Source of the DNA: Malus domestica
Taxonomy: Eukaryota > Streptophyta > Magnoliopsida > Rosales > Rosaceae
NCBI RefSeq assembly: GCF_042453785.1
Contig: NC_091668.1
Location: 2,496,501 to 2,560,500, forward strand
Length of the DNA stretch: 64,000 nt
Direction of reading: 5' to 3'
Shown: piece after piece, positions 2,946-46,630 of the stretch
How positions within the stretch are numbered: position 1 is the stretch's first letter
Layout: every line of letters begins with the position of its first letter
Program-made: the position numbers and the translations under genes
The notes under the pieces: model-generated
What the model saw: the letters and a program-made list of their open reading frames with translations, nothing else
What the model was told of the DNA's origin: nothing
Databases searched by the model: none

Positions 2946-3697
2946 GCCTCGTTTGGCACACCGTATTAAGCATCGGATAGGGTTAATAATGCGGGAGTGG
3001 GTGTTTGGAGACTTACGTACTAAATAGTCGCCGAACTAACAAATCCGGTCCAAATTAATTAGTACGCCTCAAATCCGCTAGTTAGTACGCTAAAAAAGCT
3101 CGGTATAATTTAGTCGGCCTCAAAACGCCTCGCACCCCTCTCGCATCTGCTCCGTCATCTCGTGTCTGTTGCTCTGGAGATTCAGAGCTAAATCAGCGGA
3201 ACCACTCCCGCTCACACCTGATTGCATCATCTTCCTCATGGGTGTTTTCTCGTTTCATCTTCATCGTCTTCCTTTTGCTGCAATTTTCCTTTTTTTTCTT
3301 CTTTTTTTCTCTTTTTCTCTCTCTGTCTTGTTTCCTTTAGTTTGTGATTTTTTCTATTTGATGGATTTGTGATTCTTGATAATTTGTGATTTTTTTGTGT
3401 TTGATGGATTAGTTTGTGATTTTCGTTGTGATATGGGTTTCAAGGGGATCTTCCCTGGGTTTCTTTTGATTTTTTTTTATTTTTGAGATTTTTTTTGTCG
3501 AATTTATTTTAATTTGAATTATCATTCCTAAAATACTATTAACAAGTAATTAAAAAATATAACATAATCGATCCTATTAATACGGTGATTAGTCCGATAT
3601 TGCACCAATCACCCGACTAATTTAGTCAGTACTATCCGACGACTATTTATCCTATCCAACTGAAATAGTCAGTACAGTCCAAGCTACCAAACGAGGC
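2946..3697. mobile_element. Non-autonomous DNA transposon with short inverted termini
   Basis: Ends are GCCTCGTTTGG and CCAAACGAGGC, flanked on both sides by CTGAG (2941-2945 and 3698-3702). Because GAGGCCTC is palindromic, GGCC termini with a 3-bp TGA duplication fit equally well, so the superfamily (PIF/Harbinger or other) is not settled. The subterminal regions are also partly inverted (CGGATAG, AAATAGTC). There is no transposase. The homologous place in the downstream duplicate (near 11372-11385) is uninterrupted, so this is a real insertion. Confidence 0.75.
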
Positions 3698-39245: not shown

Positions 39246-39539
39246 TGTTACATTCCGGCTCGGGCCCCCATCATATTCTGGGCTCGACTCCACCGTAGCA
39301 CGATATTATCCACTTTAGTCCCCGACCACGCCCTCACGGTTTTGTTTTTGGGAACTCATACGAGAACTTCTTAGTGGGTCACCCATCTTGGGATTGCTCT
39401 CGCGTGAACTCGCTTAACTTCGAAGTTTCGATAGAACCTGAAACCAGTGAGCTCCCAAAATGCCTCGTGTTAGGTAGAGATGATAATATACATATAAGGC
39501 ATAGATGATCCACTCATCTGAACGATGTGGGATGTTACA
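39246..39539 (-). mobile_element. Cassandra solo LTR
   Basis: Starts TGTTACA, ends GATGTTACA, with a perfect 5-bp duplication ACGCC (39241-39245 and 39540-39544) and no partner LTR: a solo LTR left by LTR-LTR recombination. On the minus strand it holds the 5S-rRNA-like block that defines Cassandra: GAAGTTAAGCGAG, GCGAGAGCAATCCC, GATGGGTGACCC, matching the pol III internal promoter part of 5S rRNA. It is not a 5S gene. Confidence 0.92.
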
Positions 39540-40330: not shown

Positions 40331-41106
40331 GGGGGTGTAGTCAAACTTGGATTTGAAAAGATTTTAAAATCCTAGTGTAGTCAATTAAAAAAATTTAAAA
40401 AATTTTAGAATCCATTAAAATCTAGGTGTAGTCAATTAAAAGATTTTAAAATCCATCAAAATCTAAGACCATCTCCAAACCTGGGCTAAAAGCCAAATTA
40501 CCCCATCCCAAACACTCTCCAACCCATGTTAAAATTTTAGGCTAAATGTCAAATGTTATTTCTGGGCCAAATACCCCCAAACTTTCCCCCTGGGCTAAAT
40601 GCCAAATGTTTATCGGAATTTAAATTTTTTTAGATTAAAATGTTCATAAAATTGATTTACAATAATCAACATATTTAATTTTTTTTTTAAATTGATTTAA
40701 GAAAAAAATTAGCCTAAGTTCATTCTTTAATAATTCCGGACTAAAATTTTAGGGCAGTAGGGTTGGAGCAAAAAAGATGTTTCTGGGCTAAAAGCCAAAT
40801 TTTCCGGGCTAAAAAATTTGGCTTTTAGCCTAAGGGTTGAAGATGGTCTAAGTGTATTAAAAAATTAAGATTTTGGAGGATTTCATTAAGTTGTGGATTT
40901 TGTGGGATTTGAAAGCAAAAAATATGTATAACCAAAATTAAAAAGAATCCAACCTCACTCACCTCTAGGATTTCAAATCCTTCTCCCACAATCCATTCAA
41001 ATTCCTTAAAATCCATATGAATTTTGTAGGAGATTTTAATCCTCTTAAATCCTATCAAATCTATCACTTTTAAAATCCTTTAAAATCTTAGTTTGACTAC
41101 ATCCCC
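40331..41106. mobile_element. Tourist-like (PIF/Harbinger) MITE, outer
   Basis: Termini GGGGGTGTAGTCAAACT and AGTTTGACTACATCCCC with TAA on both sides (40328-40330 and 41107-41109), the 3-bp TWA duplication of PIF/Harbinger. Its 776 bp include the nested element at 40467-40848; without it and one TAA copy it would be about 390 bp. Confidence 0.9.
40467..40848. mobile_element. Tourist-like MITE nested in the outer one
   Basis: Termini GACCATCTCCAAACC and GGTTGAAGATGGTC with subterminal GGGCTAAAAGCCAAATT / AATTTGGCTTTTAGCC, flanked by TAA (40464-40466 and 40849-40851). A second PIF/Harbinger-type insertion, younger than its host. Confidence 0.9.
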
Positions 41107-41502
41107 TAAAAATGTTTCTAAAGAAAATATTTTTTATTTATTTTAAAAGTACTTGAAGAAGCACTAATTATGTCACATCCCGCCCCGGACTTTCACTACA
41201 TCCCGAGCTCGACTCTACTGTAGCACGATATTATCCGCTTTGGGCCCCAACCACGCCATCACGATTTTTGTTTCTGAAAACTCACAAGAGAACTTCCTAA
41301 TGGGTCACCCATCCTGGAATTGCTCTCGCTGTGATCTCACTTAACTTCGGAGTTCATGTGGAACCCGAAGCCAGTGAGCTTCCAAAAAACTTCATGCTAG
41401 ATAGAGATGAGAATATACATATAAGGCTTTGATGATCTAACGATCTATCCCCCTTAGGGACCCGACGTCCTTGTTGGTACACTTCCGGCCAAGGATTGAC
41501 TC

Positions 41503-41846
41503 TGTTTATATCATATTTAGGGTCTCGTATTTAGATCTCGTACAAATACTCGGGGGACTTAAATGTAATTACGTGATAAAGGAATGGGCAAATATGTACT
41601 AAGTGAGGATCCCTTATTCTATAAAAGGACTCTTCACCCTTACAATTGGGGGAGGCCATTTCTAAAGCCTTCTCACCCCTCTCATATTCAGAGGTTCTCT
41701 TCTTCACCTCTCAGATAAATACAATATCAGTGTGGATGTAGCCCAAACCTTGGGGTGAACCACAATACATCTTGTGTTATTTACATTTTATGCAGATTCA
41801 CGGTCGATTTACGTTGTTTCAAGACCTTCGGTTTTGTGCATCAACA
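41503..41846 (+). repeat. 5' LTR of the nested element
   Basis: 344 bp; TATA box CTATAAAAGG at about 41619-41628. It differs from the 3' LTR by scattered substitutions and a deletion in the CT-rich part near 41670. Confidence 0.9.
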
Positions 41847-42116
41847 TTTGGCGCAGTCTATGGGAATCGATACGAAAAGTTGTGTCGGTTTTCTTTCATT
41901 TTTTCACATCCGCCGTGGATCTGCAAAATCTGCAAAAACCCAAAAAACCAAAAGCAATCACACAAAAAAAACCCAAGGAATAAAATTTGTCATCTCTCTG
42001 TCTTGTAGAGCTTTTAAGACCCACACGGACTCCAACCCATCGCAAAAATCCTTTCCCTTACAACCCAGATCCGGTGGGACGCCATTCGCAATCCCCAACC
42101 CCCATAATCCTCAGCC

Positions 42117-42290
42117 ATGGTTTCGGCGTCTCTCAAAGCCGTGATGCTGACTTACGTCCAGTACCAGAGAGGTGACCAATTAGGTCACTTCCTCACTTAG
42201 ATTTCCCTCGTCCCAGTATTCATCAACTTCGGCGGCTTCTTCTGCCGTGAACTCCTCCACGGCATGTTCTTCTTCGTCTCAGCCTACAGA
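42117..42290 (+). pseudogene. Captured lipid phosphate phosphatase / dolichyl-diphosphatase first-exon fragment
   Basis: Translation from ATG 42117 gives SLKAVMLTYVQYQRGDQLGH, then a stop where the family has Trp, then ISLVPVFINFGGF, RELLHGMFFF. This matches the N-terminus of plant LPP-gamma-type (dolichyl-diphosphatase-like) membrane phosphatases as I know them. The phosphatase motifs are absent, part of the second helix is missing and one nonsense codon is present, so it is a dead fragment in sense orientation inside the retroelement. Confidence 0.7.
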
Positions 42291-42325
42291 TATCTCTCTC
42301 TCTCTCGCTCGCACTCTGCGTTTCT

Positions 42326-42801
42326 ATGAACTTGAAACCTTCAACAACCACTGCTCCTCTACTGAACCAGAAAAACCCTAACAATCATTCATCGAAACCG
42401 AAGCCAAGGGACTTCCTGAGCCACCTCGAAGCCTACCTCGCGAAGCGAGATGGCGTTGACAAGCTCATCAAGGTATCTCGGTACGCCACCAAGATCGTCT
42501 TTGCCTCCTCCGTCATTCTAGAAACCCTGCCCCTAACGCAACGGCTTAAGAGCTTCGAGTCGGGCGTCGGCGTCAGTCGCAAGGCCTTCCGGTTAGGTAA
42601 GTTCATCCAGGACGTTAACGCTCTGAGGAGCTCGAACTTTGTTTCGAATCAGGAGCACGTACTGGCAGTAATCGCCTACGACGGTGAGAGACTGTATTTT
42701 TTTTCATTAAACAGTTCGTCTGGCTGGTCAAATCTGGATTGATCTATAAGAAACACTCGCGGAATTTGCAGAAGATCAGCGCCTGGGCCGAATTCATCCG
42801 G
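42326..42801 (+). pseudogene. PEX11: Captured PEX11 (peroxisome membrane protein 11) fragment
   Basis: From ATG 42326 the translation has the plant PEX11A-type N-terminus: RDFLSHLEAYLAKRDGVDKL, RYATKIV, RLKSFESGVGVSRKAFRLGK. PEX11 drives peroxisome elongation and division. A frameshift at the T run near 42699-42706 moves the reading to KQFVWLVKSGLIYKKHSRNL and KISAWAEF. It ends near a CATCCG|GTACGC sequence that looks like a donor site followed by intron-like DNA, so genomic rather than spliced sequence may have been captured. The rest of PEX11 is missing. Confidence 0.85.
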
Positions 42802-43019
42802 TACGCAACATCATTTCATTGAAATTTAGGGATTTGAATCGGATCTCAAAAGACAAAAATTGCGTGAAATCGAGCATTGAGATCGCGATCACGATAGGGA
42901 ACATGCGTGAGAGAGAGAGAGATGAAAGGTTTGGAGAGTGACTGAGCAGATGAGAAACTCTGCGAATGTCGTTCAAGACACTGGGCTAAATTATAACTAT
43001 TGTGTCTAGGAGTCAGACA

Positions 43020-43218
43020 TCGCAACTGGCTACGTGGTTGGTGCATTTTTGTTCTTCTTGGTAGGTAACGAGCAACTTTTGAAATAACAGGCTGAGATGA
43101 CTCAGGCTTTGGGAACATTCATGAGTGTGTACTACAAGTCCAAGAAGGGAAGGAAGACCGAGAATGAGATGCATGAAGCTGAGCAAGCCATCCTTGAAAC
43201 TCCTATCACCGAGCTCTG
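43020..43218 (+). pseudogene. Coding-like fragment of unknown origin inside the retroelement
   Basis: A frame ending at TGA 43217-43219 reads MSVYYKSKKGRKTENEMHEA then EQAILETPITEL. Upstream, another open stretch (IATGYVVGAFLFFLVG) is separated by intron-like GTAGG..AACAG. Codon texture looks like host gene sequence, but I do not recognise the family. Confidence 0.4.
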
Positions 43219-43794
43219 ATGTTGTTCGAGTGTTTTTCGTATGGATCACAAGTTGTGGACTCGTGGACCATGGAGCGCTAGGAATAGAAAAGGGAGGCTT
43301 TCCTCATATGCCATCTACAATCTACAAAGTAAAAGCAGGGAACCAGAGTGCCATCTGCAATCTACAAAGTAAAAACAGAGAACTTGAGTGCCATTTGCAA
43401 TCTGCAAAAAAAAGCCAAGTAAAGAAAAGAATTTTACTTTACTTTTGTCTGCCATCTGCAAAACAGAAAGCAAAAGGAGAGAAGAGAAAAAAAAAATTGG
43501 GTTTTGACTGAGCACATGCACGACTGCAGCGCAAAGACAGATACAAAGATAAAGAGAGGTGTGGCGGAAAAGAAAAAGCAGAAAGCAAAAGCAAGGAATA
43601 AACACCCCACCAGAATGATGTGATTTACTTTTCTTATTTTTTAATGATGTATTTTTCTTATCTTTCAGAGACATCTGTATAAACCCCATTAGAGGGTAAT
43701 CAGTAAAAAAAAAAAAAACGGGAAAGCCCAAAATAAATGGGCTGGAATGTTGTGTGGAGGGCAAAGGCCCATAAGCCCAAAATAGCACCAACCA

Positions 43795-44198
43795 GGTGAT
43801 CAAAAGTACGTATAGTACTCCACAATTATTCGGTAAATCGCCACTATTACCACCAACCAGGTGATCAAAAGTACGCCTAGTACTCCAAAATTATTCGGCA
43901 ACCCGCCGCTATTACCACCAACCAGGTGATGAAATGTACAACCCGTACTCTAATATCATTTGGCAACTAGCCATTCATGCCACCAACCAGGTGATGAAAT
44001 GTACAACCCGTACTCTCCTTCATGCCACCAACTAGGTGATCAAAAGTACGCCCAGTACTTCAAATCATACTTGAGCATTACTCATGTCAATCATACATAA
44101 ACATTCATGAGCATCACTCATTCAATCATACATAAACATTCATGACCATCATTCATGACCATCACTCATGTTAACATTCATAAGCATCACTCATGTCA
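43795..44198. repeat. Tandem array of about 67-bp units
   Basis: Repeats of ACCAACCAGGTGAT(C/G)AAA.GTAC followed by GTACTC and a CATT/ATTA spacer. The last part (43921-44198) is itself duplicated as a 278-bp unit at 44199-44480. Lies inside the nested retroelement. Confidence 0.8.
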
Positions 44199-44665
44199 AC
44201 CAGGTGATGAAATGTACAACCTGTACTCTAATATCATTTGGCAACTAGCCATTCATGCCACCAACCAGGTGATGAAATGTACAACCCGTACTCTCCTTCA
44301 TGCCACCAACTAGATGATCAAAAGTACGCCCAGTACTTCAAATCATACATGAGCATTACTCATGTCAATCATACATAAATATTCATGAGCATCACTCATT
44401 CAATCATACATAAACATTCATGACCATCATTCATGACCATCACTCATGTTAACATTCATAAACATCACTCATGACAACATCTATGAGCATCACTCATGTC
44501 AATCAACATAAACATTCATGAGCATCACTCGTGTCAATCAGCTTCAAAAGCTTCATTTATAGAGCTTTAGCTTCAAAAGCTTCATTTACAAAAGCTCCAG
44601 CTTCGAAAGCTTCATTTACAAAAGCTTTAGCTTCAAAGCTTCACTTGCAAAGGTTCACCTACAAA
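44060..44665. repeat. CATGAGCATCACTCATG and AGCTTCAAAAGCTTCATTTA arrays
   Basis: Short-period arrays of CATCACTCATG / ACATTCATGA up to about 44540, then AAAGCTTCATTTACAAAAGCT repeats to about 44665. The peptide read from the latter (SKASFTKA repeats) is judged non-genic. Confidence 0.75.
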
Positions 44666-44780
44666 GCTTTAGTGCAGGGCATACAAATACCGCATCCGAA
44701 CAACAGCCACTTCGGCCCATACATGGATTCAATTTGAAGTCTTCAACCAACAGACTCTATTGACCGAAGACTTGGGGGAC

Positions 44781-45195
44781 TACATTATGTACCATATATT
44801 GGGCCTCAACTGGGCCTCATGAAAAATACTTGGGAGACTTATCCCATTATTTATGTATTAAAGAGCGATCCCTTATTCTATAAAAGGGACTCCCTCACTT
44901 TCATTACAGAGCACCCATTATTCATGTATTGAGGAGTGAACTATTATTCTATAAAATGGACTCTCTCACCTTTATTAGAGAGCAACGCCGCCAGCTGAGC
45001 AACCGCCTCGCCGCGAGCATCACTCCTAGCCCATCACTTCTGTATTGAGGAGCGATCCCTTATTCTATAAAAGGGACTCCCTTACCACCATTAGAGAGCA
45101 TCGCCGCCTACTGAGCAGCCGCCTCGTTGCGAGCATCAACTCTAGCCCATCATTTATGTATTGAGGAGCGAGCCCTTATTCTATAAAAGGAACTC
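44781..45195 (+). promoter_or_regulatory. LTR-like relic and repeated TATA-box promoter modules
   Basis: Starting with a diverged LTR head (ACCATATATTGGGCCTC) after the motif GGGGGACTAC, the core GCGATCCCTTATTCTATAAAAGG recurs at about 44866, 44941 (CTATAAAATGG), 45054 and 45172. With the two LTR copies the element has six such modules. The internal ones are spaced 75-120 bp apart, each followed by GACTCCCTCAC-like sequence and AGAGCA. Confidence 0.75.
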
Positions 45196-45420
45196 TCTCA
45201 CCTTCAAACGCCACAAAGCCAAGCCAACCAAGGCAACATAAGCCACGAGTCGAGCAGCCTCGCAGCGTGTGTTACTTCTAGTTGAGCATCATTTCAGATT
45301 GAGCACTGCCTTATATCGAGCATCAGTTCAAGACAGTATATAGTTACTTCGGCCCACACATGGACTGAATTTCAAGTCTTCAACCAAAAGACTCTCTTGA
45401 CTGAAGACTCAAGGGACTAC

Positions 45421-45786
45421 TGTTTATACCATATTTAGGGCCTCGTATTTAGATCTCGTACAAATACTCGAGGGACTTAAATGTAATTATGTGATAAGGG
45501 AATGGGCAAATATGTAATAAGTGAGGAACCCTTATTCTATAAAAGGACTCCTCACCCTCACAATTGGAGGAGACCATTTCTGAAGCCTTCTCACCCCTTT
45601 CACCCCTCTCACATCCTCTCTTATATTAAGAGGTTCTCTCCCTCACCTCTCAGATAAATACAATATCAGTGTGGACGTAGCCCAAACCTTGGGGTGAACC
45701 ACGATACATCTTGTATTATTTACATTTTATGCAGATTCACGGTCGGATTTACGTTGTTCCAAGACCTCCGGTTTTGTGCATCAACA
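45421..45786 (+). repeat. 3' LTR of the nested element
   Basis: 366 bp; preceded by GAAGACTCAAGGGACTAC, likely the second-strand priming region. The same motif (GAAGACTTGGGGGACTAC) also precedes an internal LTR-like relic at 44781. Confidence 0.9.
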
Positions 45787-45799
45787 GACTCTAATACCA
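45787..45799 (-). other. Cassandra primer-binding site
   Basis: Minus-strand TGGTATTAGAGTC, one or two changes from the initiator tRNA-Met complement TGGTATCAGAGC. Its inner five bases (GACTC on the plus strand) are the target duplicated by the nested element, so the site was rebuilt intact on this side. Confidence 0.85.
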
Positions 45800-46089
45800 A
45801 ATTGTTACATCCCCGCTTGGACCCTCACCACATCCCAGGCTCGACTTCACCGTAACACGATATTGTCCGCTTTGGACCCCTACCACGACCTCACGATTTT
45901 GTTTCCGAGAACTCACACGAGAACTTTCCAGTGGGTCACCCATCCTAGAATTGCTCTTGCTGTGATCTCGCTTAACTTAAGAGTTTCTACAGAATCCGAA
46001 GCCAATGAGTTTCCAAAATGCATCATGATAGGTAGAGATGAGTTAGAGGATCCACTCCCCAGGGTGATGACAAATTACGTGCTTCTTGT

Positions 46090-46630
46090 AAAAAAACATT
46101 TCTAATGTTTTTAAATGCACTCTAGCTATTTTAAATGCATTTCCAAACGAGTTCTCTAAATCTAAATTGAACATACGCAATTGCAAGAAATTCAAAAGCT
46201 GCTTTGGACAAATGTATAAATGTAAGTATCGATTTGATATAATAGTTTAGAAGTAATAACGTGGGGATATTAACAAAAAAAAAAATTTAAGGAGCTTAGA
46301 ATCAAATTTAAAGTTGAGAGGGCAATGTGGAAATAAGGCTTAAACGTTTCCTAAAATAGAAAAAATAAAATAATTTAAAAGAGTTACAAATTATGGAAAG
46401 TTAAAGCGACATTAACATTAATAAACACAGAGAAATTAAAACGTTCAATGGGCCTAATGTAATTCCGCCAAACATCAAGGTCATTGCTTTCCAGCTTTTC
46501 CCAATTTAAAAATAAATAAACAACGAAAAAAATTTTGAAAGATGAAAATATAAAAAAAATTAAAAAGAGTAATAAAATCATCAGCTGTACCCACTCCCAC
46601 CCAATCCATCTGATTTTATAGCACCTCTTC
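46090..46630. other. Intergenic between Cassandra and the metalloprotease gene
   Basis: The left part (TTTCTAATG..CATTTCCAAACGAG, 46095-46155) resembles one arm of the MITE family at 53109-53573. The remainder is AT-rich upstream DNA passing into a CT-rich leader at 46620-46660. Confidence 0.5.

Follow-up and report, generated by a model that had tools for sequence, protein, structure and literature searches.

The window analyzed here is a 64,000-nucleotide stretch of Malus domestica contig NC_091668.1 (C8:2496501-2560500), which carries on its plus strand a protein-less element bounded by a pair of long terminal repeats (LTRs) and spanning positions 41503-45786 (4284 bp). We conclude, with a probability of roughly 0.8, that this element belongs to a high-copy family of non-autonomous LTR retrotransposons, the interiors of which arose when reverse transcription switched between element RNA and spliced host mRNAs as templates, together with recombination among family members. 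The observations that carry this reading are an anatomy of head, slot, and tail, several gene pieces in each traced copy, a bias toward sense cargo, the exact loss of GT-AG introns, and cargo blocks recombined between copies. The original prediction, made from the letters of the window, had described an LTR element that captured at least two unrelated host genes; this proved too modest, in that the cargo holds at least four such genes with located donors, with a bZIP-like scrap probably representing a fifth, and a whole family shares the architecture.

The LTR character of the element is borne out. The two LTRs (41503-41846 versus 45421-45786) are 94% identical (324 of 344 aligned sites; Kimura two-parameter distance 0.061; Jukes–Cantor distance 0.064 ± 0.014), terminate in TG...CA, and are flanked on both sides by the 5-bp target-site duplication (TSD) GACTC. 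The reported lack of gag-pol also holds, as Pfam scans of the cargo in both orientations and of the tail in sense frames detected no retroelement domain.

Host-gene cargo of the window copy

All cargo pieces in the window run in the sense of the LTRs, as had been predicted for the fragments (Table 1). The first derives from a PAP2 gene, which we take to be of the lipid phosphate phosphatase (LPP)-gamma type; its ATG is at 42117 and is followed by an in-frame stop codon at 42198-42200. A DNA match identifies the donor as a 222-residue PAP2 gene on C4 (donor Pfam PAP2, 8.3e-21), from which the piece differs at 14 of 247 sites (Jukes–Cantor 0.059 ± 0.016), compared with 29 of 235 sites (0.135) for the C12 homeolog. 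Pfam returns no match for the 59-residue piece itself, and a PDB sequence search with it gave nothing useful; the predicted family is nonetheless correct by the DNA match, with the piece beginning at 42029 and not at the predicted 42117 (42117-42290). For the PEX11 piece, predicted at 42326-42801, Pfam places the family directly (PF05648, E = 1.7e-15 over 42326-42742), and the similarity runs farther than predicted. A 2-nt insertion near 42697 shifts the remainder of PEX11 into a second frame, in which a DNA alignment continues to ≈42918 and profile positions 95-150 match at ≈42688-42855 (E = 8.8e-5; 22.5 bits versus a cut-off of 23.8), and, read from its ATG, the sense PEX11 frame extends for 138 residues. 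Because PEX11 matches continue there in the shifted frame, the stretch once read as intron-like is coding sequence. The alignment to parental genes thus located donors for LPP on C4/C12 and for PEX11 on C8/C15 (C8:2.18M and C15:1.78M), the latter two both single-exon genes. Of the two PEX11 donors, the nearer (L009) lies on the contig of the element, ≈357 kb away, and is interrupted at codon 164 by an in-frame TAG; the frame of the C15 homeolog is open.

A third coding-like piece, predicted at 43020-43218, is captured gene sequence of three origins, and a single third gene is rejected: the interval 42936-43249 comprises a DUF1218 piece, a bZIP-like scrap, and the 3′ end of a gene that, from its translation, is presumably a DWARF1 (DWF1)-type sterol reductase. 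Positions 42936-42941 may be a scrap of the DUF1218 5′ untranslated region (UTR). A longer bZIP-like stretch in another family member, L043, matches Pfam bZIP below the cut-off (E = 0.0039). The DWARF1-type donor carries FAD_binding_4 (Pfam, 1e-15); its last exon alone finds no match in Pfam or PDB, and a PDB sequence search with 43088-43216 gave nothing useful. The donor genes recur on chromosome pairs 4/12, 13/16, 3/11, 9/17, and 8/15.

The window cargo spans one donor intron, that of the DUF1218 gene, and this intron (1224 nt, GTAAGT...GCAG) is exactly absent, with the last 20 nt of exon 1 (42942-42961) directly abutting exon 2 (42962-43066). In donors L038 and L039 (introns of 1224 and 1210 nt), exon 1 ends ...AGAAGCTCT^GTAAGTTC and exon 2 starts ...CAG^GCAA, where the caret marks the exon boundary; the joint reads ...AGAAACTCT^GCGAATGTCGTTC in the window and ...AGAAGCTCT^G(C/T)GAATG in members L036 and L037. 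A gapped alignment yields one 1224-nt GT-AG gap against L038 and the same gap split in two against L039. The exon-1-end match scores 27 (L038) and 32 (L039) against maxima of 30 and 23, respectively, when the upstream region of each donor was shuffled 200 times, such that L039 exceeds every shuffle and L038 does not; the argument for intron loss is carried by a match whose end coincides precisely with the donor site in both genes. The original suggestion that genomic or unspliced sequence was captured is not supported, since this intron is exactly missing and the stretch first taken for an intron is part of the PEX11 coding sequence.

Table 1. Features of the element and its insertion site (window positions)
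Feature	Position	Strand	Remarks
Left part of host TRIM (Cassandra-like)	41171-41502	-	5S-rRNA-like stretch 41273-41396 in LTR
TSD GACTC, left copy	41498-41502		
5′ LTR, 344 bp	41503-41846	+	TATA-like TATAAAA at 41620
Fixed head (PBS-like sequence and leader)	41847-41950	+	Ten-kb member comparison
Captured PAP2 gene (presumed LPP-gamma type)	42029-42278	+	5′UTR and start of frame to donor codon ≈58
Captured PEX11 gene	42295-42918	+	End of 5′UTR and most of reading frame, ATG 42326
Captured DUF1218 gene	42936-43066	+	Donors C11:33.60M and C3:30.07M
bZIP-like zipper scrap, 39 nt	43067-43105	+	
Captured 3′ end of gene (presumed DWARF1/Delta24-sterol-reductase type)	43106-43249	+	Donors C16:0.41M and C13:0.47M
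Fixed tail	43620-45420	+	Ten-kb member comparison
3′ LTR, 366 bp	45421-45786	+	
TSD GACTC, right copy	45787-45791		
Right part and second LTR of host TRIM	45792-46042	-	81.7% to left LTR

Fixed ends and a variable slot in the family

To place the window copy among its relatives, we searched the genome (651 Mb, 19 contigs) with a head query (41800-41960, LTR end plus leader) and a tail query (45210-45440), which returned 1598 and 2088 first-look candidates, respectively; these are loose candidate counts and not a census, and the best 40 of each were scored (all E ≤ 2.1e-48 for the head query). Two sets of members were compared. The ten-kb set covers 10 kb around L010, L036, L037, L040, L043, L044, and L045, and is biased in that its members were found through shared cargo or repeat matches. 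The leader-rank set covers 2.4 kb past the leader of L046 to L053, which are rows 2-9 of the head-query list. Members share LTR, a leader of ≈100 nt, and a repeat-rich tail of ≈1.8 kb, and the intervening cargo slot of 1.1-2.4 kb varies. With L045 set apart, all six ten-kb members match the window in the head to 41902 (two of six in the 41903-41952 bin), none does so in 41953-42302, at most three do in 42303-43602, and all six do again in 43653-45786. The tail is present in six of seven ten-kb and seven of eight leader-rank members, and was not seen in the 10 kb of L045 or the fetched stretch of L051; considered as an autonomous partner, L045 has no Pfam domain in three sense frames of 7.8 kb. 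By eye, perfect 5-bp TSDs flank five of the eight members with a 5′ LTR at hand (window, L037, L040, L043, and L044). The genome search advised in the original prediction, run here by head and tail, recovers a large family in which the traced copies carry different cargo. In L036, two element bodies seem to share a middle LTR (body-LTR-body-LTR), likely a recombination product.

The cargo of other copies is drawn from diverse genes. At E ≤ 0.01, sense frames match PEX11 (L010), a weak zinc finger (L036), DELLA and PC-esterase (L037), Nodulin-like and a weak DUF1218 (L040), a weak bZIP and a weak OAD_gamma (L043), NTP_transferase (L044), a weak LRRNT_2 (L046), pectinesterase and H+-pyrophosphatase (L047), tubulin (L048), RRM (L049 and L053), LRR (L050), RVT_2 (L051), and the Jas motif (L052), with none in L045. 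At E ≤ 1e-3, host domains are found in sense in 11 of 15 elements and in antisense in one of 15 (six and one, respectively, of the leader-rank eight); the antisense scan covered 45 frames of fifteen elements, L045 being scanned in sense alone, and the only antisense matches are to DUF1005 (L046 and L047). The RVT_2 match in L051 (3e-20) is a sense Copia reverse-transcriptase piece within ≈120 nt of the leader, and is either a captured transposable-element transcript or a nested insertion.

Four further members (L044, L048, L050, and L053) were traced to donors by whole-genome search, and each holds ≈3-7 gene pieces, as counted from runs of matches that fall mostly on homeologous pairs, are not each identified as a gene, and in some cases are other family members. 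L044 contains pieces of ≈7 genes, including three joined exons of a C17/C9 gene from which introns of 87 and 126 nt are exactly absent and a C15 gene piece that exactly lacks its 131-nt intron, all sense GT-AG. L050 (≈3 gene regions) exactly lacks an 86-nt intron, also GT-AG and in sense. L048 carries pieces of ≈4 genes, and L053 those of ≈4 gene regions with gaps that are uninformative on introns. L044 further harbors at 2982-3190 a piece (query 263-471) nested within that of another gene (10-261 and 473-537), as if the enzyme had left one template and then rejoined it.

Comparison between copies also suggests an order of events. PEX11 and its upstream junction (TCAGCC.ACAGAT..CTCTC), which is absent from the donor, are common to the window and L010 on C2, and L010 matches neither the LPP piece nor the third block (DUF1218-bZIP-DWF1). 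This third block is common to the window, L036, and L037, the latter two without PEX11 and LPP; the LPP piece was found nowhere beyond the C4/C12 pair among eight scored candidates. PEX11 gives way to the third block within a GAGAGA-rich stretch that is similar in both. Jukes–Cantor distances are 0.109 ± 0.014 for PEX11 and its C8 donor, 0.117 ± 0.015 for PEX11 in the window and L010, and 0.073 ± 0.017 for the third block in the window and L036. Because both PEX11 distances exceed the LTR-LTR distance, capture of PEX11 is older than insertion of the window copy; LPP was taken up at about the time of insertion, since its divergence from the donor (0.059) is close to that between the LTRs (0.064). 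The window copy thus looks like the product of several rounds, in which an older PEX11 block, as in L010, would have been joined by recombination to a DUF1218-bZIP-DWF1 block, as in L036 and L037.

Proposed template switching and its alternatives

We propose that element RNA would be packaged with host mRNAs in the particles of a putative autonomous partner, and that during minus-strand synthesis the enzyme would enter from the tail and end at the head. On its way it would hop at least once onto spliced mRNAs, with some of the hops falling in short repeats (for example, CTCTCT or GAGAGA), and then return to the element RNA upstream, after which the product would integrate; recombination between two packaged members would give rise to new block combinations. 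Such mid-synthesis hops to packaged mRNAs would leave sense, spliced inserts bounded by head and tail, as observed. We also lean, with less assurance, toward a broader view of a standing “cargo slot,” in which head and tail suffice for packaging, priming, and integration, and spliced host mRNA continually overwrites the interior. The family would then be an RNA-level counterpart of Helitron and Pack-MULE shuffling and a fossil record of mRNAs that entered particles.

Several findings weigh against template switching onto spliced mRNAs. Relative to both homeologs, a 132-nt GT...AG stretch is missing at 43213/43214, at the DWF1 stop codon. The loss takes out coding sequence, does not correspond to an ordinary intron, and resembles the outcome of cryptic splicing in donor or element RNA. 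In exon 1 of DUF1218, a tentative 82-nt gap of GT-AG type depends on an anchor of 6 nt. Because neither loss is an ordinary intron, splicing of the element's own RNA may have removed sequence as well. Some breaks in other members likewise coincide with neither a splice site nor a clear microhomology: the fourth gap of L044 (C5, 165 nt) lacks GT-AG ends, a gap of 136 nt in L048 takes out an intron together with 13 nt beyond it, and the 211-nt gap of L050 is a jump within a leucine-rich repeat. The bZIP-DWF1 joint is of this kind too, and the bZIP-like scrap has no located host donor. The LPP and PEX11 pieces, from intronless donors, and the DWF1 match, within one exon, are uninformative on splicing, and introns were called from GT-AG ends and homeologs, not from annotation. 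A possible antisense C-terminal piece of DUF1005 (≈20 residues) occurs in L046 and L047, which share cargo. Finally, the analysis brought to light no autonomous partner, transcript, or particle.

The 132-nt loss, and tentatively the 82-nt case, also lend some support to a different order of steps, in which capture of unspliced or genomic pieces came first and splicing of element RNA removed their introns in further rounds. We consider this improbable, in that it requires an extra step and none of the traced pieces was seen to retain an intron, although no systematic search was made; even so, it would be an RNA-level process. Still less probable is capture at the DNA level, whether as gap-repair filler or by copying of genomic pieces into an LTR element in the manner of Helitrons or Pack-MULEs. 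The LPP, PEX11, and DWF1 pieces come from intron-free donor regions and are compatible with such copying, but the exact absence of GT-AG introns in the window, L044, and L050, the sense bias of the cargo, and the common head and tail that enclose it in the six ten-kb members compared all argue against it. A chimeric gene whose fused protein serves element or host, for which maize Bs1 provides a precedent in the accessible text of a review (PMC13317346), is very unlikely, as none of the listed open reading frames links the captured coding pieces with each read in its own frame, LPP is interrupted by its stop codon and PEX11 by its frame shift, and the sense PEX11 frame stops at 138 residues.

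Known relatives, element ends and insertion site

The kind of element described here is already known, including exon-only capture of several genes; the unusual aspect is that one high-copy family keeps its ends fixed while every traced copy has its own mosaic. Pack-MULEs and Helitrons shuffle multiple genes in many copies, but these are DNA elements, whereas this family has LTRs, a TSD, and mostly sense, spliced cargo. The designation “LARD-like” (large retrotransposon derivative) in the original prediction fits loosely, for a large noncoding LTR element. LARD interiors are conserved, as noncoding sequence of >4 kb, whereas this family keeps head and tail alone, and the slot of the 4284-bp element is unshared among most copies. 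Terminal-repeat retrotransposons in miniature (TRIMs) are usually smaller than ≈1.5 kb, well below the size of this element, and the TRIM Cassandra resembles the insertion target only, not the gene-carrying element. The presence of several host genes as exon-only sequence is the feature of a transducing element like Bs1 or GmaRetroS15, and the window element shows it, with its four genes of located donor and the absent 1224-nt intron.

In the accessible text of the relevant reports, maize Bs1 carries pieces of three host genes, with abnormal template switching among the proposed routes (2026 review, PMC13317346), and its capture, like that of the window element, is of exons only (PMC4717578). 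The Bs1 pieces form an expressed chimeric gene, whereas no fused frame is seen here and each traced copy has a different mosaic. Soybean TRIMs likewise carry exon-only fragments in what is described of a survey of 30 elements in seven subfamilies, and GmaRetroS15 holds three host genes, including five exons without introns, with 5-bp TSDs and several copies (PMC4717578). GmaRetroS15-type elements thus share with this family a noncoding LTR structure, exon-only multi-gene cargo, and 5-bp TSDs; as given there, the gene-carrying soybean TRIMs measure 1.2-1.4 kb, in contrast to 4.3 kb for the window element, and the high-copy family described here has a larger slot with ≈3-7 pieces and cargo that varies by copy. 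Host gene fragments also occur, in the parts of the surveys available, in LTR elements of maize (425 elements, at least 189 captures; PMC2774510) and of rice and sorghum (672 and 1343 captured genes; PMC3726574). Under the conditions applied in maize, the accessible text reports no element holding fragments of more than one nuclear gene, whereas all five copies traced here (window plus four) are multi-gene. The accessible text of the apple, pear, and Rosaceae repeat literature (PMC6445120, PMC11197308, and PMC6409787) contains no mention of the family.

Gene capture by LTR elements has so far been described mostly as scattered cases with an inferred mechanism. Many copies in one genome that appear to share their ends and differ in cargo render donor choice, orientation, splicing, joints, and order of uptake measurable, and make directly testable both mRNA template switching in LTR-element capture and which mRNAs are packaged. 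Such a family could also be a large source, in apple relatives, of small RNAs that match genes and of misannotated gene fragments.

The fixed head of the window copy opens with a primer-binding-site (PBS)-like sequence, TTTGGCGC.GTCT.TGGGAATCGA, which by eye differs by two changes from the form in other members, TTTGGCGCCGTCTGTGGGAATCGA; the matching tRNA would presumably be tRNA-Asp. A polypurine-tract-like AAGGGACTAC precedes the 3′ LTR, also by eye, and the tail contains tandem repeats of the CAACCAGGTGATCAAAAGTACG type. Four tandem tail units (44840-45216) of the TTATTCTATAAAA type, with TATAAAA at 44879, 44950, 45066, and 45182, resemble the TATA region of the LTR (41593-41632) and are also present in several other members; they could possibly form an internal promoter array or a regulatory repeat.

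The element is nested inside a small minus-strand LTR element (41171-41502 and 45792-46042), which looks like a Cassandra-like TRIM, and the 5S-like stretch in its left LTR scores 26.9 bits, under the Rfam gathering score of 38. A blastn search of the 64-kb window with 41100-46100 revealed no further family members and matched only an additional copy of the TRIM LTR at 39246-39510. This copy is 80% identical to 41171-41437, is apparently solo, and contains a minus-strand 5S-like stretch at 39347-39458 that scores 29.5 bits, likewise under 38.

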